Source: a virus
Direction: 5' to 3' (one strand)
IMG/VR virus record: IMGVR_UViG_3300021420_000300
Location: 1 to 24,790 of that record
Length of the DNA stretch: 24,790 nucleotides
Made by a program: the position numbers and the translations under genes. This document shows, piece by piece, positions 2,374-8,810 of this stretch. Each line of letters begins with the position of its first letter. The stretch's first letter is position 1. The notes below the pieces were generated by a model that had not been told where the DNA came from, did no database searches, and saw only the letters and a list, made by a program, of their open reading frames with translations.

Positions 2374-2381
2374 GAAGAAAA
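2374..2381. repeat. Target-site duplication, left copy (GAAGAAAA)
   Basis: The eight bases directly left of the inserted element are identical to the eight directly right of it (3536-3543). An 8-bp duplication is the usual size for IS1595-type insertions. Joining the flanks at one copy restores the pre-insertion sequence and closes an 18-codon frame that starts at 2332. Confidence 0.85.
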
Positions 2382-2403
2382 GGGAATTATATAGATAACT
2401 CCC
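2382..2403 (+). repeat. Left terminal inverted repeat of the IS1595-like element
   Basis: The 22-bp repeat starts with GGGAATTATATAG and ends with ACTCCC. Compared with the inverted right end it differs at only two positions in the middle. It directly abuts the target duplication. Confidence 0.85.
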
Positions 2404-2471
2404 GCAAGTAAACAAAGGACTTTAAGCGCCGTGTTTGCGTTAAATATCTTTGGGCAAAACGCAAATAGTAG

Positions 2472-2500
2472 TTGACTACCTTACGGGAGTCATGTATATT
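2472..2500 (+). promoter_or_regulatory. Sigma70-type promoter inside the insertion element
   Basis: The -35 box TTGACT (2472-2477) and -10 box TATATT (2495-2500) are separated by 17 bp. Each box matches the bacterial consensus at five of six positions. Transcription would begin near 2507 and run into the coupled small genes of the element. GGAGG at 2509-2513 then precedes the ATG at 2522, giving a very short leader. The promoter also points towards the phage replication genes downstream. Confidence 0.65.
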
Positions 2501-2521
2501 GTGAGCATGGAGGCAATATAC

Positions 2522-2758
2522 ATGCGAGGAATGAAAATCGGAAACGAATACGCACAGCAACTCCGGTCGCGCTACGCCAAGACGCCTAAAGCAGTGCTTG
2601 CGGCTGTAGTTGTGAGCCTGTTGGTTAAGCAATCAGGTAAAGAGGACTTCGATGGTGTGCTGGACGCCTTTGTTCAAGAGTGGGCAATTCTGCATCAGAA
2701 TGGGATAGTTTCCCAAAAGCCTTTGATCTTAAACAAGAATCAGGAACCCAATGCCTAA
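2522..2758 (+). CDS. Small alpha-helical protein of the insertion element, 78 aa
   Basis: The ATG at 2522 is chosen because GGAGG lies eight bases before it and the predicted transcription start is just upstream. The upstream in-frame ATGs have no such site and precede the promoter. The product has YAQQLRSRYAKTPKAVLAAVVVSLL, a helical stretch of a kind I associate with small reading frames travelling with IS1595-type transposases, but I cannot confirm that here. Its stop overlaps the start of the next gene by eight bases, which suggests translational coupling. It might be a regulator or accessory factor of transposition, but the function is unknown. Confidence 0.65.
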   Translation: MRGMKIGNEYAQQLRSRYAKTPKAVLAAVVVSLLVKQSGKEDFDGVLDAFVQEWAILHQNGIVSQKPLILNKNQEPNA

Positions 2759-2936
2759 GCGAGTCTTTGGTGTTTGCCCTGATTGCCAACGATACATCTC
2801 AAAGCGGAAAGGTAAGTTACGAGTTCACTTCCCCACAGACGGGCGTCAAAATAAAAGCACCTTCACTAATCCTATCCCAAGGTCTGCCGACGAGAATTTA
2901 TGTCCGGGTAGCGGGAAGAAAGTAGTGAGCCAATGA
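2751..2936 (+). CDS. Small zinc-finger-like protein of the insertion element, 61 aa
   Basis: The gene overlaps the previous one by eight bases and ends in an ATGA overlap with the transposase gene, so it is part of the element's operon. The protein has two Cys motifs, CPDC at residues 9-12 and CPGSG near the C terminus. This gives a possible partial metal site like the CxGSG knuckles of small mobile-element proteins. The middle is basic, so nucleic-acid binding is plausible. No enzymatic motif is seen and the function is not known. Confidence 0.55.
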   Translation: MPKRVFGVCPDCQRYISKRKGKLRVHFPTDGRQNKSTFTNPIPRSADENLCPGSGKKVVSQ

Positions 2937-3352
2937 GCCGCTCAACGATCAGCACGTTCAAACTCTTTGAACTGTTCCCCGATGAGCCTTCCGCCCGCAA
3001 GTACCTAGAAGGCCGTCTCTGGCCGAATGGCGTTACCTGTCCCGAATGCAAGTCTAAAGAGCGCATCACGACGCGGAAAGATGGCTTCTACCGTTGCAAC
3101 GCTTGCAAACTGGACTTCACGGTCAGGACTAAGACAATCTTTGAGCGTTCACATGTCCCGCTGCATAAGTGGCTATACGCCATGTACTTGCTTGTGACCG
3201 CTCGCAAGGGGATTTCCAGCCTACAACTCGGCAAGGAAATCGGTATCACCCAGAAATCGGCATGGTTCGTACTCCATCGGCTCCGTGAGGCTTGCGGGAC
3301 CAAACTGGAGTTGCTTCAACGGAACGTCTGGATAGTTTCGTCGATGCCGTAG
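2933..3352 (+). pseudogene. IS1595-family transposase, N-terminal part only (DDE domain deleted)
   Basis: The first roughly 135 residues match the pattern of IS1595/ISXO2-type transposases. There is a zinc ribbon, CPEC near 35-38 and CNAC near 54-57, inside a WPNGVTCPEC context. It is followed by the FTVRTKTIFERS and GKEIGITQKSAW-x2-LHRLREA segments that precede the catalytic domain. Full-length members are roughly 270-320 aa and carry the DDE/DDN catalytic residues afterwards. Here the frame breaks just after KLELLQ and stops at 3352. In the next frame, 3319-3390 reads TERLDSFVDAVAGKRLTFER before its stop, which looks like the typical transposase C terminus. The simplest explanation is an internal deletion of several hundred bases that joined the two ends out of frame. 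The product could still bind the element's ends. Confidence 0.8.
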
Positions 3353-3390
3353 CGGGCAAGCGTTTGACATTCGAGAGGCTAACACAGTGA
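3319..3390 (+). pseudogene. Residual 3' end of the deleted transposase gene
   Basis: In the frame one base off from the transposase fragment, 23 codons read TERLDSFVDAVAGKRLTFER and then end in a TGA. The GKRLT(F/Y) ending is a feature I associate with C termini of IS1595-type transposases. The TGA overlaps the GTG of the next small gene as GTGA, just as a functional gene junction would, which supports this being the original 3' end. Confidence 0.5.
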
Positions 3391-3521
3391 AAATCCTAGA
3401 CCAAATCACCGATGTTGTGCTCGCCTATCGCCCGAAAGAAAAGACGAAGGCTGCAAAGCGTAGAATCCGTAGGAATAAGCGGGCGACGAAGCCGAAGGAC
3501 GGACAGAAATCAAGGGAGTGA
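3387..3521 (+). CDS. Small highly basic protein of the insertion element, 44 aa
   Basis: The GTG start overlaps the TGA of the transposase remnant (GTGA). The product begins MKILDQITDVVLAYRPKEKT and continues as a Lys/Arg-rich tail. Its stop codon lies inside the right terminal repeat, so the gene fills the element to its edge. Strong positive charge suggests a nucleic-acid-binding accessory protein. It is too short to assign to a family with confidence. Confidence 0.5.
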   Translation: MKILDQITDVVLAYRPKEKTKAAKRRIRRNKRATKPKDGQKSRE

Positions 3522-3535
3522 ACTATATAATTCCC
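3514..3535 (-). repeat. Right terminal inverted repeat of the IS1595-like element
   Basis: The inverted copy of the left end starts GGGAATTATATAG when read from the right boundary. The stop codon of the last small gene lies within it, and the target duplication follows immediately. Confidence 0.85.
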
Positions 3536-3543
3536 GAAGAAAA
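3536..3543. repeat. Target-site duplication, right copy (GAAGAAAA)
   Basis: This is identical to 2374-2381 and marks the right boundary of the insertion element. Confidence 0.85.
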
Positions 3544-3563
3544 GCCTTGACTCCGAGGACAAA

Positions 3564-4544
3564 GTGAATAGAATGCGCCAAGCAATCTTGAGTATGGGCC
3601 GGGGACTTAGTTTCCCGATCCAGAGGACCGTGGACCGGGCGGTGCCTAGAACATCCCCGGTCCCGCCCTTTCTAGGAGGGCCTACGAATTTTTACCGACG
3701 ATTCCCCGGCGATTATCTCCGAGACACACAGCACCTAACTCTCGCCCAACATGGAATTTTCAATCTGCTTTTAGACACCCTGTACGCCACCGAAAAACCT
3801 ATTCAGTCCAGGGAGGACGCTTACCGAATCACGCGCTCATTCGAAACCCAGTCGGTTTCTGACTGCAACAAAATCATTGATGAATTTTTCACCGAAACTA
3901 GGCATGGAATCACGAATAAAAGGGTCGAGGAAGAGATTGAACGGGCGAATATTAGAGCTAAAGTATCTAGGGAGAATGGTTTACAAGGTGGAAGACCTAA
4001 AACCAACTGGGTTTCTCTTGGGTTAGCTAAACCGAACCTAGAAAAAAGCTCTCCAGACTCCAGACTCCAGACGCCAGATAATGCAAATTCACAGTCAAAA
4101 CCTATTGCCCAAAAACCGGGCGAGAGCGAACTTTTCGGGTTTAAAGTGTTTTGGGATGCGTACCCAAAGCGAGTAGGCAAACCCGCTGCTAGGAGAGCGT
4201 GGCTCTCGAAAGTCAAGGACGATTCCCGCTACCCGGAAGTGATTGCAGGTTTGGAGCAGTGGAAAGCATCCGAGCAGTGGCGAGAGATTCAGTTTGTCCC
4301 ATACCCCGCTACGTTTCTCAATCAACAGCGATGGCAAGATCAAGTTCCCTCTGGAGGAATAAATGGCAAATCTAAGTCCGAGGAACGATCCGAACGCGTC
4401 CGAGCCGCAGCCGAAGCAGTTTTCGGAACTACTGGCCCAATGGGGAGAGCTTTACGCGGCGAATTACGGCAAGGAGCCGACCGTGGAAACATTCCTGACC
4501 TACAAGATAGGCCTCTCCGACTTGGAACCAAAATTCCTTCATAA
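3564..4544 (+). CDS. DUF1376-domain phage replication-initiation-type protein
   Basis: The conserved part begins at about residue 42 with NFYRRFPGDYLRDTQHLTLA and continues through RADEEI-like helices. This is the DUF1376 pattern found at the N terminus of phage replication or primosomal proteins. After a variable linker, residues about 195-262 give FWDAYPKRVGKPAARRAW and end PYPATFLNQQRWQDQ, the C-terminal helicase-loader/DnaD-like region of such proteins. The nominal GTG (3564) or the ATG at 3573 leaves about 40 untypical residues before the domain. Directly before NFYRR there is AGGAGGG at 3674-3680 followed by an ACG codon at 3684, so the real start could be a non-canonical one there. The 3' end overlaps the next gene by 182 nt in another frame. 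Confidence 0.8.
   Translation: MNRMRQAILSMGRGLSFPIQRTVDRAVPRTSPVPPFLGGPTNFYRRFPGDYLRDTQHLTLAQHGIFNLLLDTLYATEKPIQSREDAYRITRSFETQSVSDCNKIIDEFFTETRHGITNKRVEEEIERANIRAKVSRENGLQGGRPKTNWVSLGLAKPNLEKSSPDSRLQTPDNANSQSKPIAQKPGESELFGFKVFWDAYPKRVGKPAARRAWLSKVKDDSRYPEVIAGLEQWKASEQWREIQFVPYPATFLNQQRWQDQVPSGGINGKSKSEERSERVRAAAEAVFGTTGPMGRALRGELRQGADRGNIPDLQDRPLRLGTKIPS
3645..3676 (+). promoter_or_regulatory. Possible translation-control hairpin overlapping a Shine-Dalgarno site
   Basis: CCTAGAA at 3645-3651 and TTCTAGG at 3670-3676 are perfect 7-bp complements around an 18-base loop rich in C and G. The right arm includes the first bases of AGGAGGG (3674-3680), which sits just before the conserved part of the DUF1376 protein. 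Folding would partly hide that site. No experimental support is possible from the sequence alone. Confidence 0.3.
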
Positions 4545-6318: not shown

Positions 6319-6692
6319 GGGAATTCAAGGTCAAGCCCGCAGGCATCAGCTTCTCGGTTCCGGCTGTGCCGCCATCGGGGAACGCATACGTTCGTCACAC
6401 ACGCACGGGCCGACACTATGTGACCGAGGAAGCCGAACAGTTCAAGCGCCTGGTTCTGGCGATTGCAAACTCAAAGAAACTGGTCATCCGATGGAAGCGT
6501 TATGGCGTCGAAGTTTCGATCTTCCTCGGAAAGAAACAGAAGGGCGACCTCGACAACTTCGCAAAAGTCACCCTGGATTCTCTGGTTTATGCGGCCATCA
6601 TCGACTCGGACGCGAAGATCACGAACTTGCGCATGTTGAAGGCTCGGGACATTGCCAATCCGAGGACGGTGATTTCGGTATGGGCCGAATAG
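6315..6692 (+). CDS. rusA: RusA-type Holliday junction resolvase
   Basis: The 125-aa product matches the length of RusA (about 120 aa) and has its acidic catalytic pattern. KGDLDNFAKVTLDSL carries D78, D80 and K84, and D99 follows in IIDSDAKIT. The spacing is the same as the D70, D72, K76 and D91 residues of E. coli RusA. The N-terminal P-x2-PSGNAYVRHTR resembles the usual 'PxSxNxxYR' entry strand. Family role: cutting of four-way DNA junctions, as a dimer, during phage recombination and before packaging. The ATG at 6315 overlaps the HNH stop as ATGA; an upstream in-frame ATG (6267) lies inside the HNH gene and is rejected. Confidence 0.88.
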   Translation: MREFKVKPAGISFSVPAVPPSGNAYVRHTRTGRHYVTEEAEQFKRLVLAIANSKKLVIRWKRYGVEVSIFLGKKQKGDLDNFAKVTLDSLVYAAIIDSDAKITNLRMLKARDIANPRTVISVWAE

Positions 6693-6715
6693 GGCCGGGA
6701 AAGGGACAGATCGAC

Positions 6716-6919
6716 ATGAACCAACCGTTAGGTGTTTCTCTGGGATGGATTCGCTGTGTCGATATATTGCCTCCTGATGGCGTTCCGGTGCCGACGAAAA
6801 TCGACGACGCCAAAGGCTGCCGCAACGAACAGGACCTCAAGCGGCAGGGCAATCTATGGTTCGTCCCGGATGGCTCGATATATGTCTATTACACGCCGAC
6901 GCATTGGAGGCCGCTGTGA
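6716..6919 (+). CDS. DUF551-type phage protein, 67 aa
   Basis: The protein begins MNQPLGVSLGWIRCVDILPP and ends YYTPTHWRPL. The W-I-x-V-x-D-x-LP opening and final THW-x-PL are the hallmarks of DUF551, a small family of unknown function common in phage early regions. AGGGACAG lies upstream of this ATG; an in-frame ATG at 6680 is also possible but lies inside rusA. The end overlaps the next gene's GTG start (GTGA). Confidence 0.7.
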   Translation: MNQPLGVSLGWIRCVDILPPDGVPVPTKIDDAKGCRNEQDLKRQGNLWFVPDGSIYVYYTPTHWRPL

Positions 6920-7302
6920 CGCCCGACCCGCTTGAGCCGTTGAGGGAGATGATCGAGAAGTGGACACCGGAACAGTTGGCTGAAAAGTTCCATGAGACCT
7001 ATGAGCGATTGGCTCCGAGCTTCGGCTATTCAACTCGAAAAGCCAGCCGCGTTCCGTGGCGTGAGGTTCCGACTGACAATCGAAACTTGATGATTGCTGT
7101 CTGCGGAGAAATGCTCAAGCCACTCGCCGCCGCACTCCCGGCGCTCGAAGAGGCGATGGCCGCTCAGGATGCGTGTATCGAGGCGATGCAAGAGCCGATG
7201 GCTTGCGGCCACTTCGCGGTCAATCTACAGCCGTTCGACTCGGGCCATGAGATATGCATCGTCTGCGCCGAGCGCGATGCGGCTCGCGGGGAAAAGTGCT
7301 GA
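6916..7302 (+). CDS. Hypothetical phage protein with C-terminal Cys cluster, 128 aa
   Basis: The GTG start overlaps the DUF551 gene's stop. The conserved-looking segment is VPWREVPTDNRNLMIAVCGE, of the 'W..(l/v)p..nr.lmi.v..e.l' kind seen in phage proteins of unknown function. The C terminus has CGH and CIVC, a possible metal site. The protein is mostly helical. Its TGA is overlapped by a GTG at 7296 that begins the amber-interrupted gene. No biochemical role can be given. Confidence 0.65.
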   Translation: MTPDPLEPLREMIEKWTPEQLAEKFHETYERLAPSFGYSTRKASRVPWREVPTDNRNLMIAVCGEMLKPLAAALPALEEAMAAQDACIEAMQEPMACGHFAVNLQPFDSGHEICIVCAERDAARGEKC

Positions 7303-7472
7303 TATAGACCGTTAGGCAATCTTCGTACGGGCACGTTTGCCTTGCAGTTAGCACAGCCGATGGCAGCCGCTTCCCGCACTTTTACGATGAAGGAGTTTCG
7401 ACGGCTTGCGTATCGAGTCGCATTCTCGCCCTCGACCCATCTGCGGTGAAGGCGGCTGAGGAGCAGCGATGA
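7296..7472 (+). pseudogene. Small gene interrupted by an in-frame amber codon
   Basis: A GTG at 7296 overlaps the previous stop, like its neighbours, and has GCGGGG just upstream. The frame reads M-L-I, then TAG (7305-7307), then stays open for 54 codons with protein-like content such as FPHFYDEGVSTACVSSRILA and the ending KAAEEQR. It closes in an ATGA overlap with the next gene. No canonical start exists after the TAG that would keep the conserved part. TAG is a normal stop elsewhere in this window (for example after the ligase gene), so reassignment is unlikely. A nonsense mutation, or a low level of readthrough, is the simplest reading. Confidence 0.5.
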
Positions 7473-7696
7473 GTGTATCGAGACAACAATTGTTGACAGA
7501 CCTGAAAAAGCTCTCAGACAAAGGTGAATTGTTGAACTGTGCGATCACGAAGGCCATCGACGAAAATCCCTGCGATTACCAAGAAGTATTTCGCATCCTC
7601 CGAGAGCAATTAAAATTTATGCGTCGGGCCGAGCGGACTGAGTTTGGATCGCCAAAACGCCGCAAGTCTCGGGCGGCTGAGGAGCACAAACGATGA
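7469..7696 (+). CDS. Hypothetical protein, 75 aa
   Basis: The ATG overlaps the previous frame's TGA and is preceded by GAGGAG. The protein is helical and basic at the end (LKKLSDKGELLNCAITKAID, then RRKSRAAEEHKR). The last codons and the following ribosome site form one copy of a 24-bp sequence repeated at 8051-8074. No family is recognised. It is part of a row of tiny coupled genes whose products end in nearly the same residues, which points to duplication or shuffling of a gene-boundary module. Confidence 0.6.
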   Translation: MSVSRQQLLTDLKKLSDKGELLNCAITKAIDENPCDYQEVFRILREQLKFMRRAERTEFGSPKRRKSRAAEEHKR

Positions 7697-7698
7697 CC
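7675..7698 (+). repeat. 24-bp gene-junction repeat, copy 1
   Basis: This stretch is identical to 8051-8074. It holds GGCTGAGGAGCACAAACG followed by ATGACC, that is, the end codons of one gene, a Shine-Dalgarno sequence and the start of the next. A shorter, diverged relative (GGCTGAGGAGCAGCGATGA) lies at 7454-7472. Confidence 0.85.
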
Positions 7699-7890
7699 GA
7701 CAAAATAATCGACACTGAGCGATGCGAGGGCCTCTACGTTTCGTTCACGCTGCCGAACGATGGGCAGCACACTCCGGTATTAATCGAGCGTGTCAACGGC
7801 GATTGCACTGTCACGAAGTTCATCATTGCGAGAGACGAAGCCAGAAAACTGATCGTCCAACTCAGGGAACTGTTACTGGAGGGACCATGA
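7693..7890 (+). CDS. Hypothetical protein, 65 aa
   Basis: The gene starts in an ATGA overlap and ends in another with the 7887 gene. The product (MTDKIIDTERCEGLYVSFTL onward) has alternating hydrophobic residues suggesting a small beta-sheet protein, followed by a helix (RDEARKLIVQLRELL). No motif identifies a function. Coupling on both sides makes it likely to be expressed with the surrounding run of genes. Confidence 0.6.
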   Translation: MTDKIIDTERCEGLYVSFTLPNDGQHTPVLIERVNGDCTVTKFIIARDEARKLIVQLRELLLEGP

Positions 7891-8072
7891 AAGATACACT
7901 CAGAAGTGCATTACATGACTTATCCAAATTACAAGTCCGATTTGCCAAGTTTGCTGAACGCGAAGCGGACCCGACGAATCGCGGTATCCTGAATAGCTTG
8001 TTCAACGAGTCGGCTATTGGAACCGCCAACGCTGGCATCAACAGTTTTCGGGCTGAGGAGCACAAACGATGA
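7887..8072 (+). CDS. Hypothetical protein, 61 aa
   Basis: The ATG at 7887 overlaps the previous stop (ATGA). A longer in-frame start at 7722 lies wholly inside the previous gene and is rejected. The protein is helical (LRSALHDLSKLQVRFAKFAE) and ends FRAEEHKR, almost the same as the RAAEEHKR ending of the 7469 gene, because both share the 24-bp junction repeat. The function is unknown. Confidence 0.6.
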   Translation: MKDTLRSALHDLSKLQVRFAKFAEREADPTNRGILNSLFNESAIGTANAGINSFRAEEHKR

Positions 8073-8074
8073 CC
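8051..8074 (+). repeat. 24-bp gene-junction repeat, copy 2
   Basis: This is an exact copy of 7675-7698, again covering the last codons of one gene, the GAGGAG ribosome site and the ATGACC start of the next. The genes before and after the two copies are otherwise unlike each other. Confidence 0.85.
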
Positions 8075-8551
8075 TTTAAGGAGTGGATCGTCACGGTTAA
8101 GCCAACCGGGAATTGGCGCACGGATATGCAACTCGGATATGAAGCCGCGACCGCCGAAGCCGAGAAGCGGGAGGCCGAGGCGCGACGGAAAACTGCAAAA
8201 GACTTTTATAAATTGGCGATCCGAATAAAAAAGCAAGGCCCGTGGCATATTGGGGGATTTCTTGGCGAAGTCTGGGAAGCATGGGAGCGGTCCGAATTAC
8301 GACGTAGCAAGATAGGGCAAGCGGAAGGGAAGTGTGGCAAATCTGCCGGAATTCTGATTGCGGGCGCTTCATCTTATGCTTGCGTACTGCCGAAGGACCA
8401 CCAGCCGAGCACGCATCCCGACGCGATTGACGGCCACCTACGCGGCGGGCGCTGCTTCAAGCACGGCGAGTATATAGGGAAACAGTGTCCTCAGTGGCCC
8501 GGGTGCATTGATCCTATGCATACAGGGCAAGCGGAAGGGAATGAGAAATAG
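8069..8551 (+). CDS. Hypothetical two-part protein with repeat-bounded Cys-rich module, 160 aa
   Basis: The start lies in the junction repeat with GAGGAG upstream. Residues 1-83 are helical and charged (EAATAEAEKREAEARRKTAK and a Trp-rich EVWEAWERSE). Residues 84-155 form a Cys-rich module (KCGK, YACV, RCFKHG, KQCPQWPGC) likely to bind metal. The module is bracketed by an exact 18-bp direct repeat, both copies encoding GQAEG, with a period of 210 bp, so its loss would leave the frame intact. No family is recognised. The N-terminal part resembles small phage accessory proteins only in composition. Confidence 0.6.
   Translation: MTFKEWIVTVKPTGNWRTDMQLGYEAATAEAEKREAEARRKTAKDFYKLAIRIKKQGPWHIGGFLGEVWEAWERSELRRSKIGQAEGKCGKSAGILIAGASSYACVLPKDHQPSTHPDAIDGHLRGGRCFKHGEYIGKQCPQWPGCIDPMHTGQAEGNEK
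8314..8331 (+). repeat. 18-bp direct repeat bounding an in-frame module, copy 1
   Basis: AGGGCAAGCGGAAGGGAA is identical to 8524-8541. The two copies are 210 bp apart, exactly 70 codons. Recombination between them would remove the Cys-rich module without a frameshift. Confidence 0.8.
8524..8541 (+). repeat. 18-bp direct repeat bounding an in-frame module, copy 2
   Basis: This is an exact match to 8314-8331, located just before the stop codon of the same gene. Confidence 0.8.
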
Positions 8552-8615
8552 CCGTAGAGGAAGATTTCCGCAAATGGAAGGCTCGGCACCGCCTGCCGAA
8601 CGATAAAGGAGTCCG

Positions 8616-8810
8616 ATGGCGCTTCCCATCACATCCGAGAAAGCCGCCGCCGACCTCCGGGTCGAGGCCGACAAGCTGATGGAATCGGCCCGGAGGCTGA
8701 TCGTCACCGGAGAACTCGATACGGCGGTCCTGTGTTCGGTGGCTGGCCGGGTTGCCGAGTGCGCCGGGGCCTTGAGGTATATTGCCGACGCCATCGAACT
8801 TCCGAGGTAG
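8616..8810 (+). CDS. Hypothetical helical protein, 64 aa
   Basis: AAAGGAG lies four bases before the ATG. The protein (MALPITSEKAAADLRVEADK onward) is alanine-rich and almost entirely helical, ending LRYIADAIELPR. No domain is recognised. Upstream, 8545-8610 contains a short protein-like stretch in another frame (EEDFRKWKARHRLPNDKG) with no start codon, which may be a gene remnant. Confidence 0.6.
   Translation: MALPITSEKAAADLRVEADKLMESARRLIVTGELDTAVLCSVAGRVAECAGALRYIADAIELPR

Follow-up and report, generated by a model that had tools for sequence, protein, structure and literature searches.

A non-autonomous, cargo-bearing IS1595-family element in a viral genome fragment and its relatives in environmental phages

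The movement of small accessory genes between unrelated phages is, to our knowledge, poorly explained. An IMG/VR virus record, a fragment of 24,790 bp analyzed here over its whole length (hereafter, the window), raises this question at a single locus: positions 2382-3535 contain a 1,154-bp stretch with the ends of an insertion sequence (IS) and several small genes, which a preliminary description had interpreted as a complete IS1595-like element without a complete transposase. What is this stretch, could it still move, and does its family belong to phages or to their bacterial hosts? The reading that we favor, with a probability of roughly 85%, is that it is a non-autonomous, cargo-bearing element of the IS1595 family that was transposed into a phage genome with duplication of 8 bp.

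Members of the IS1595 family (Siguier et al., 2009, as summarized in PMC8101967 and PMC11891212) are characterized by a transposase comprising a Zn ribbon and a DDE domain, terminal inverted repeats (TIRs) starting with GG, and an 8-bp target-site duplication (TSD). The window element is bordered by 22-bp inverted repeats matching at 20 of 22 positions (91% complementary), the left one, GGGAATTATATAGATAACTCCC, located at 2382-2403 (plus strand) and the right one, GGGAATTATATAGTTCACTCCC, at 3514-3535 (minus strand), and both ends begin with GG (GGGAATTATATAG...). A perfect 8-bp repeat, GAAGAAAA, lies directly outside them, at 2374-2381 on the left and 3536-3543 on the right, and TSDs of 8 bp are found clade-wide. 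These ends and their duplication agree in coordinates and in character with what had been described before. When the window was scanned with the family TIR pattern (at most three mismatches), only the two element ends were found, compared with 0.03 matches expected from shuffled sequences; the left TIR also matches the pattern on its own reverse strand. In two viral elements, L073 and L074, both TIRs are letter-for-letter identical to those of the window element, each copy has its own 8-bp duplication (TTAAATAG and AAATTTTT, respectively), and each encodes an intact 305-aa IS1595 transposase. The proposed check, a search for longer relatives that combine these ends with a full DDE transposase, was thus successful, and L073 is 97% identical to the window element over the shared part.

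Compared with L073, its closest intact relative, the window copy lacks approximately 460 bp, a loss which shifts the reading frame. The truncated tnpA open reading frame (2933-3352, plus strand) holds the first 129 of the 305 residues of the full-length transposase, including the Zn ribbon and the start of the IS1595 domain, followed by 10 out-of-frame residues. The deletion junction is a CAA triplet (3317-3319, plus strand), which in L073 occurs at each end of the missing stretch, and an out-of-frame remnant of the tnpA 3' end (ERLDSFVDAVAGKRLTFERLTQ) follows at 3320-3389 on the same strand. The zinc ribbon (PF12760) is recognized in the window open reading frame over its curated cut-off (E = 5.5e-11), and the NCBIfam IS1595 transposase profile NF033547 gives 51.4 bits, covering only positions 1-53 of 215, in contrast to 185.8 bits over nearly the entire profile for L073. 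Together with the TIRs and the 8-bp TSD, these two profile matches bear out the proposed IS1595-like identity. An alignment of 49 transposases identified the invariant acidic residues D135, D204, and E240 as the natural candidates for the catalytic triad; all three are located inside the stretch lost from the window copy. Since a complete DDE catalytic domain, present in L073 and L074, is lacking here, we classify the window element as a non-autonomous derivative and not as a complete IS, and, its ends being intact, as transposase-dead yet end-intact. The earlier statement that it has no complete transposase therefore holds, only a stump being left. An AlphaFold2 model of the L073 transposase (pLDDT 85, pTM 0.82) found its best solved matches among retroviral intasomes and the ISCth4 transposase.

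The catalytic region is also missing in L085 (1,260 bp), L196, and L026 (a bacterial contig), all three of which retain a small gene termed here orf4. In L196 (6709-8116) and L026 (1412-3588), the N-terminal domain is kept together with orf4, and in L196 the C-terminal end has been fused in frame. Repeated loss of the catalytic region alone could point to a regulatory role for the stump. The PHROG family phrog_25593, listed without a known function, matches the IS1595 transposase (E = 1e-22 with the window stump) and is therefore probably a phage-borne IS1595 transposase family, which provides a likely role for a phage family so far unannotated.

Upstream of tnpA, homology of the relatives L073-L076 and L078 to the window element extends from the left TIR through a promoter and a Shine-Dalgarno sequence, stops approximately at the start codon of the first passenger gene, and restarts at or near the tnpA ATG, the intervening genes being different in each relative. 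The conserved left module (2382-2521, plus strand) contains on the same strand a sigma-70-type promoter, with TTGACT at 2472-2477, a 17-bp spacer, and TATATT at 2495-2500, and a Shine-Dalgarno sequence, GGAGG, at 2509-2513. The element's own promoter, as previously proposed, was thus located in a module common to relatives, with about one such match expected by chance in a region of this size. It is followed by orf1 (2522-2758, plus strand; ATG at 2522), encoding a 78-aa protein assigned to no Pfam or PHROG family, and by orf2 (2751-2936, plus strand), encoding a small Cys-rich protein of 61 aa without a confident family. Among the relatives, a recognizable orf1 homolog is present only in L078 (36% identity over 61 aa), and a pattern scan for viral relatives of orf1 found none. 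Because the promoter/Shine-Dalgarno module is kept while the genes after it differ from relative to relative, the passengers seem to act as interchangeable inserts in an expression slot and, as far as these comparisons indicate, orf1 and orf2 behave like exchangeable passengers between that module and tnpA.

The last gene, orf4 (3387-3521, plus strand), encodes a 44-aa basic protein with an LDxIxDxVLAYRPK core and a basic tail. Its relatives are present in 88 of 92 elements bearing a complete or truncated transposase gene and in none of 34 transposase-less elements. No Pfam family above the cut-off and no solved relative were found for it, no match was detected beside four distant plasmid IS1595 transposases, and its structure model consists of two helices with a low pTM. 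The simplest reading of this distribution is that orf4 encodes a clade-specific partner of the transposase and is not cargo. The description of a cargo-bearing element with four coupled small genes has to be modified accordingly. The four open reading frames are real, and the first three overlap (orf1 and orf2 by 8 bp, orf2 and truncated tnpA by 4 bp, ATGA), but truncated tnpA and orf4 are 34 bp apart, their coupling having been broken by the deletion frameshift. Cargo is present in the form of orf1 and orf2, whereas of the remaining two genes one is a transposase stump and the other appears to be part of the transposition module.

The window copy is flanked by a small open reading frame (1960-2220) on its left and by a DUF1376 replication gene on its right. 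A promoter-like TTGACT site at 3547 starts 4 bp past the right duplication and is therefore spared by the insertion, which may be tolerated here because it is intergenic and leaves this site untouched. An empty site was sought in several ways, and none was identified for the window copy. Relatives of the RNA ligase gene of the window (L288-L302) are not syntenic; the structural-gene relatives L307-L312, reached through a tail-side protein (63-73% identity in this one protein), contain no TIRs and, with flanks too divergent, no alignable sequence at the insertion point, with only a 92-bp match further downstream; and relatives of the DUF1376 protein, used as a marker, are only 26% identical. 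The RNA ligase gene itself (1086-1721) has relatives with 62-83% identity in unrelated phage backgrounds, and the contigs of two of them also hold cassettes of the window element's family. A stretch of 92 bp upstream of the DUF1376 gene (3590-3681), with AGGAGG at its end, is 93% identical in the distant phage L317 (5814-5904), in which the surrounding sequence cannot be aligned; several of the mismatches lie in two arms resembling those of a hairpin. On the basis of this comparison, the stretch resembles a conserved leader, with no meaningful Rfam match and with folding little better than that of shuffled sequences (z = -1.2). Just upstream of the element, two 30-bp direct repeats of the type GCCGACTCGGGGAAAA (2209-2238 and 2277-2306; 80% identical) are possibly phage regulatory or origin repeats.

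With the N-terminal part of the transposase as a query, 210 loci were confirmed in viral contigs and another 71 in a 257-Gb collection of bacterial genomes, and a scan with one TIR variant found at least 119 viral stretches. According to a view that PMC8136500 credits to Leclercq and Cordaux (2011), IS elements are rare in phages, and the preliminary description likewise regarded such insertions as uncommon, an expectation which fits this clade poorly given the 210 viral tnpA loci. In all sequences fetched, 126 distinct elements with perfect 8-bp duplications were found, comprising 88 with a full transposase, four catalytically truncated (the window element, L085, L196, and L026), and 34 with none. 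One could suppose that no transposition is involved and that the repeats serve regulation or recombination of the phage around a normal block of its genes; several TIR copies do occur in some phages, and the TIR provides stop codons for cassette genes. However, nearest TIR pairs are flanked by a perfect 8-bp duplication in 145 of 196 cases and by none when displaced 8-mers are compared, 2.3 Mb of shuffled sequence gave none, 118 of the 126 duplications are distinct, and cassettes described below occupy unrelated sites with different duplications. This alternative, to which we assign a negligible probability, is already refuted by the TSD statistics. The duplications are composed of 82% A+T, compared with 48% in nearby flanks, which is an A+T-rich insertion target preference. 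In another viral contig, L295 (approximately 6582-8770), the RNA-ligase gene is split by an element of approximately 2.17 kb with different ends, GGTAMTAATATA...GACTGACTA, and the 8-bp duplication CAAGAAAG; it probably represents a sister group that uses a TIR type of its own. In the 2.9-kb element L086 (contig G010, 43041-45972), an additional left TIR pointing inward at 45209 gives the impression of two cassettes, one nested in the other or fused with it.

The 34 transposase-less elements measure 171-1,426 bp, have perfect TSDs, and consist mostly of single genes; many such cassettes were found in viral contigs. Their longest open reading frame covers a median of 82% of the element, compared with 42% in shuffled interiors; it fills at least 80% in 23 of 34 elements, and the stop codon lies inside a TIR in 22 of 34. 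Three of these cassettes were each found twice (78%, 85%, and 91% identity), with different duplications and no similarity in the flanks, which is direct evidence of movement without a transposase of their own. Exact joined-flank patterns of two cassettes, each present in more than one contig, identified no empty alleles. Integron-like site-specific recombination was also considered as an explanation but discarded, since every insertion is flanked by an 8-bp duplication of its own. Recognizable cassette cargo is nearly all related to DNA modification, with methyltransferases of the N6/N4, MT-A70, Dam, and C5 types and one Mom protein. Further methyltransferases and Mom are found among the passengers of transposase-bearing copies, along with PAPS-reductase-like proteins and an SfiI-type enzyme; for most cargo, including that of the window element, no function was recognized.

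The movement of these cassettes bears on whether the window copy is a dead relic, that is, an autonomous IS1595 element which inserted once, suffered an inactivating deletion, and never moves again, its passengers and orf4 decaying. The frameshifting deletion has indeed wrecked its transposase, this exact deletion derivative was not encountered a second time, and no helper transposase was found in the window record, which is a fragment. Nevertheless, the TIRs and the TSD are intact, the former being identical to those of active-looking relatives, orf1, orf2, and orf4 are still open, and cassettes of this family have demonstrably moved without a transposase gene, so that we consider a relic rather unlikely, though worth keeping in mind. 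For a non-autonomous element still able to move, the identical ends suggest mobilization in trans: a full-length sister TnpA, probably together with the orf4 protein, would bind the TIRs and transpose the element through DDE chemistry in a cell in which such a phage meets either another one or a host carrying the family. The family would persist in phages through spread by co-infection and through the benefit that some passengers, DNA methyltransferases and Mom among them, can bring to the phage.

The helper need not be bacterial. The earlier proposal that the element borrows a transposase from its host is right in that it has none of its own, but autonomous copies reside next to cassettes in viral contigs G001, G002, and G007. 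In G007, a 97-kb phage contig, an autonomous copy (L079) and a 274-bp cassette (L224) share the rare TIR variant GGGAATTATAGAGTTAACTCCC, which suggests local mobilization. Among 40 viral contigs (2.2 Mb, all containing matches by selection), approximately nine hold two or more elements, some phages having 2-4, and genes flanking the viral copies include matches to integrase, helicase, DNA polymerase, portal, and internal virion proteins. Ten exact TIR matches in eight genomes, and only two TIR pairs, were found in 299 Terriglobia genomes (approximately 1.4 Gb, estimated from listed sizes), a comparison to be read with the reservation that Terriglobia may not be the host, that metagenome-assembled genomes (MAGs) tend to lose viral contigs, and that IMG/VR includes proviruses. 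Ten MAGs picked for holding a tnpA relative contain about one element each. The rarity of the ends in Terriglobia and the presence of several elements per phage contig support residence in phages. Among isolated phages (INPHARED), only three distant matches, all below 40% identity, were found, and the clade therefore cannot be studied in described isolates.

The same comparison weighs on the possibility that the family is chromosomal and that the phage copy represents an incidental hop of a bacterial element during lysogeny. Such an origin would agree with the generally bacterial distribution of IS1595 transposases (415 plasmid records), with related elements in MAG contigs, and with the view that phages gain IS elements while integrated (PMC8136500). 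Against it, none of these plasmid records holds a copy at 60% identity or more, exact TIR matches in Terriglobia are few whereas single phage contigs hold 2-4 elements, and one locus from the bacterial genome collection, L019, lies on a contig that agrees in length and coordinates with the IMG/VR virus record L116. We regard a bacterial-host element caught in a prophage as unlikely.

With these amendments, the overall reading of the window element, namely complete ends, no complete transposase, cargo, and an IS1595 identity, is supported. One point had been undersold, namely its membership in what appears to be a phage-resident clade, one whose cargo is exchangeable and often anti-restriction and which has a newly recognized, conserved accessory gene. 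Members of this IS1595-type clade, most of them found in genomes of environmental phages, appear to transfer small phage genes from phage to phage, frequently ones for DNA modification. Whether it forms a phage-specialized cassette system, in which TnpA and the small basic accessory protein, mainly in environmental phages, mobilize in trans a pool of compact units of one gene each, many of them for anti-restriction DNA modification, is a proposition for which we see even odds. If true, phage accessory genes ('morons') would have a dedicated route between unrelated phages. Ends which are common in viral contigs, nearly absent from candidate hosts, and enclose single phage genes provide a concrete and testable mechanism.

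Several kinds of mobile element resemble this clade in part. The IS1595 family is described with a single transposase gene (PMC8101967), whereas orf4 accompanies it as a further conserved gene in this clade, which resides mostly in phage contigs and carries phage-type cargo, and the window copy lacks the catalytic domain; passengers are already known in the family, such as the transcription regulators of ISNha5 reported in PMC8101967 and PMC11891212. Transporter IS elements (tIS) are defined by passengers unrelated to transposition (PMC3129680, PMC11891212), and methyltransferases are listed there as passengers of another IS family. The window element is similar to tIS in this respect, orf1 and orf2 being unrelated to transposition and unlike the passengers of close relatives. 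In contrast to tIS, this clade resides in phages, and its cargo differs between close relatives (>90% identity, shared transposase part) while the promoter/Shine-Dalgarno module and tnpA remain constant. Mobile insertion cassettes (MICs) of the IS231 type in Bacillus cereus consist of TIRs around genes, without a transposase, and can be activated in trans by a related one (PMC3129680). The 34 transposase-less elements share this organization but differ in their IS1595-type ends, phage genomes, compact single-gene units, and DNA-modification-rich cargo, and the window copy, in which 129 tnpA residues remain as a stump, is not a MIC in the strict sense of having no transposase gene at all. Viral MITEs, non-autonomous IS derivatives linked to viruses and their hosts (Nadal-Molero et al., 2024, a preprint as cited in PMC11389934), belong to a class described as gene-less (PMC11389934), whereas the cassettes of this clade are gene-sized and coding, and the window element, with 1,154 bp and four open reading frames, is neither short nor non-coding. 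No description of this combination was found in the searchable literature, outside of which most subscription journals lie. Transporter IS elements, MICs, and IS1595 passengers are known kinds, and the phage-resident clade, its accessory protein, and its phage-gene cargo look undescribed.
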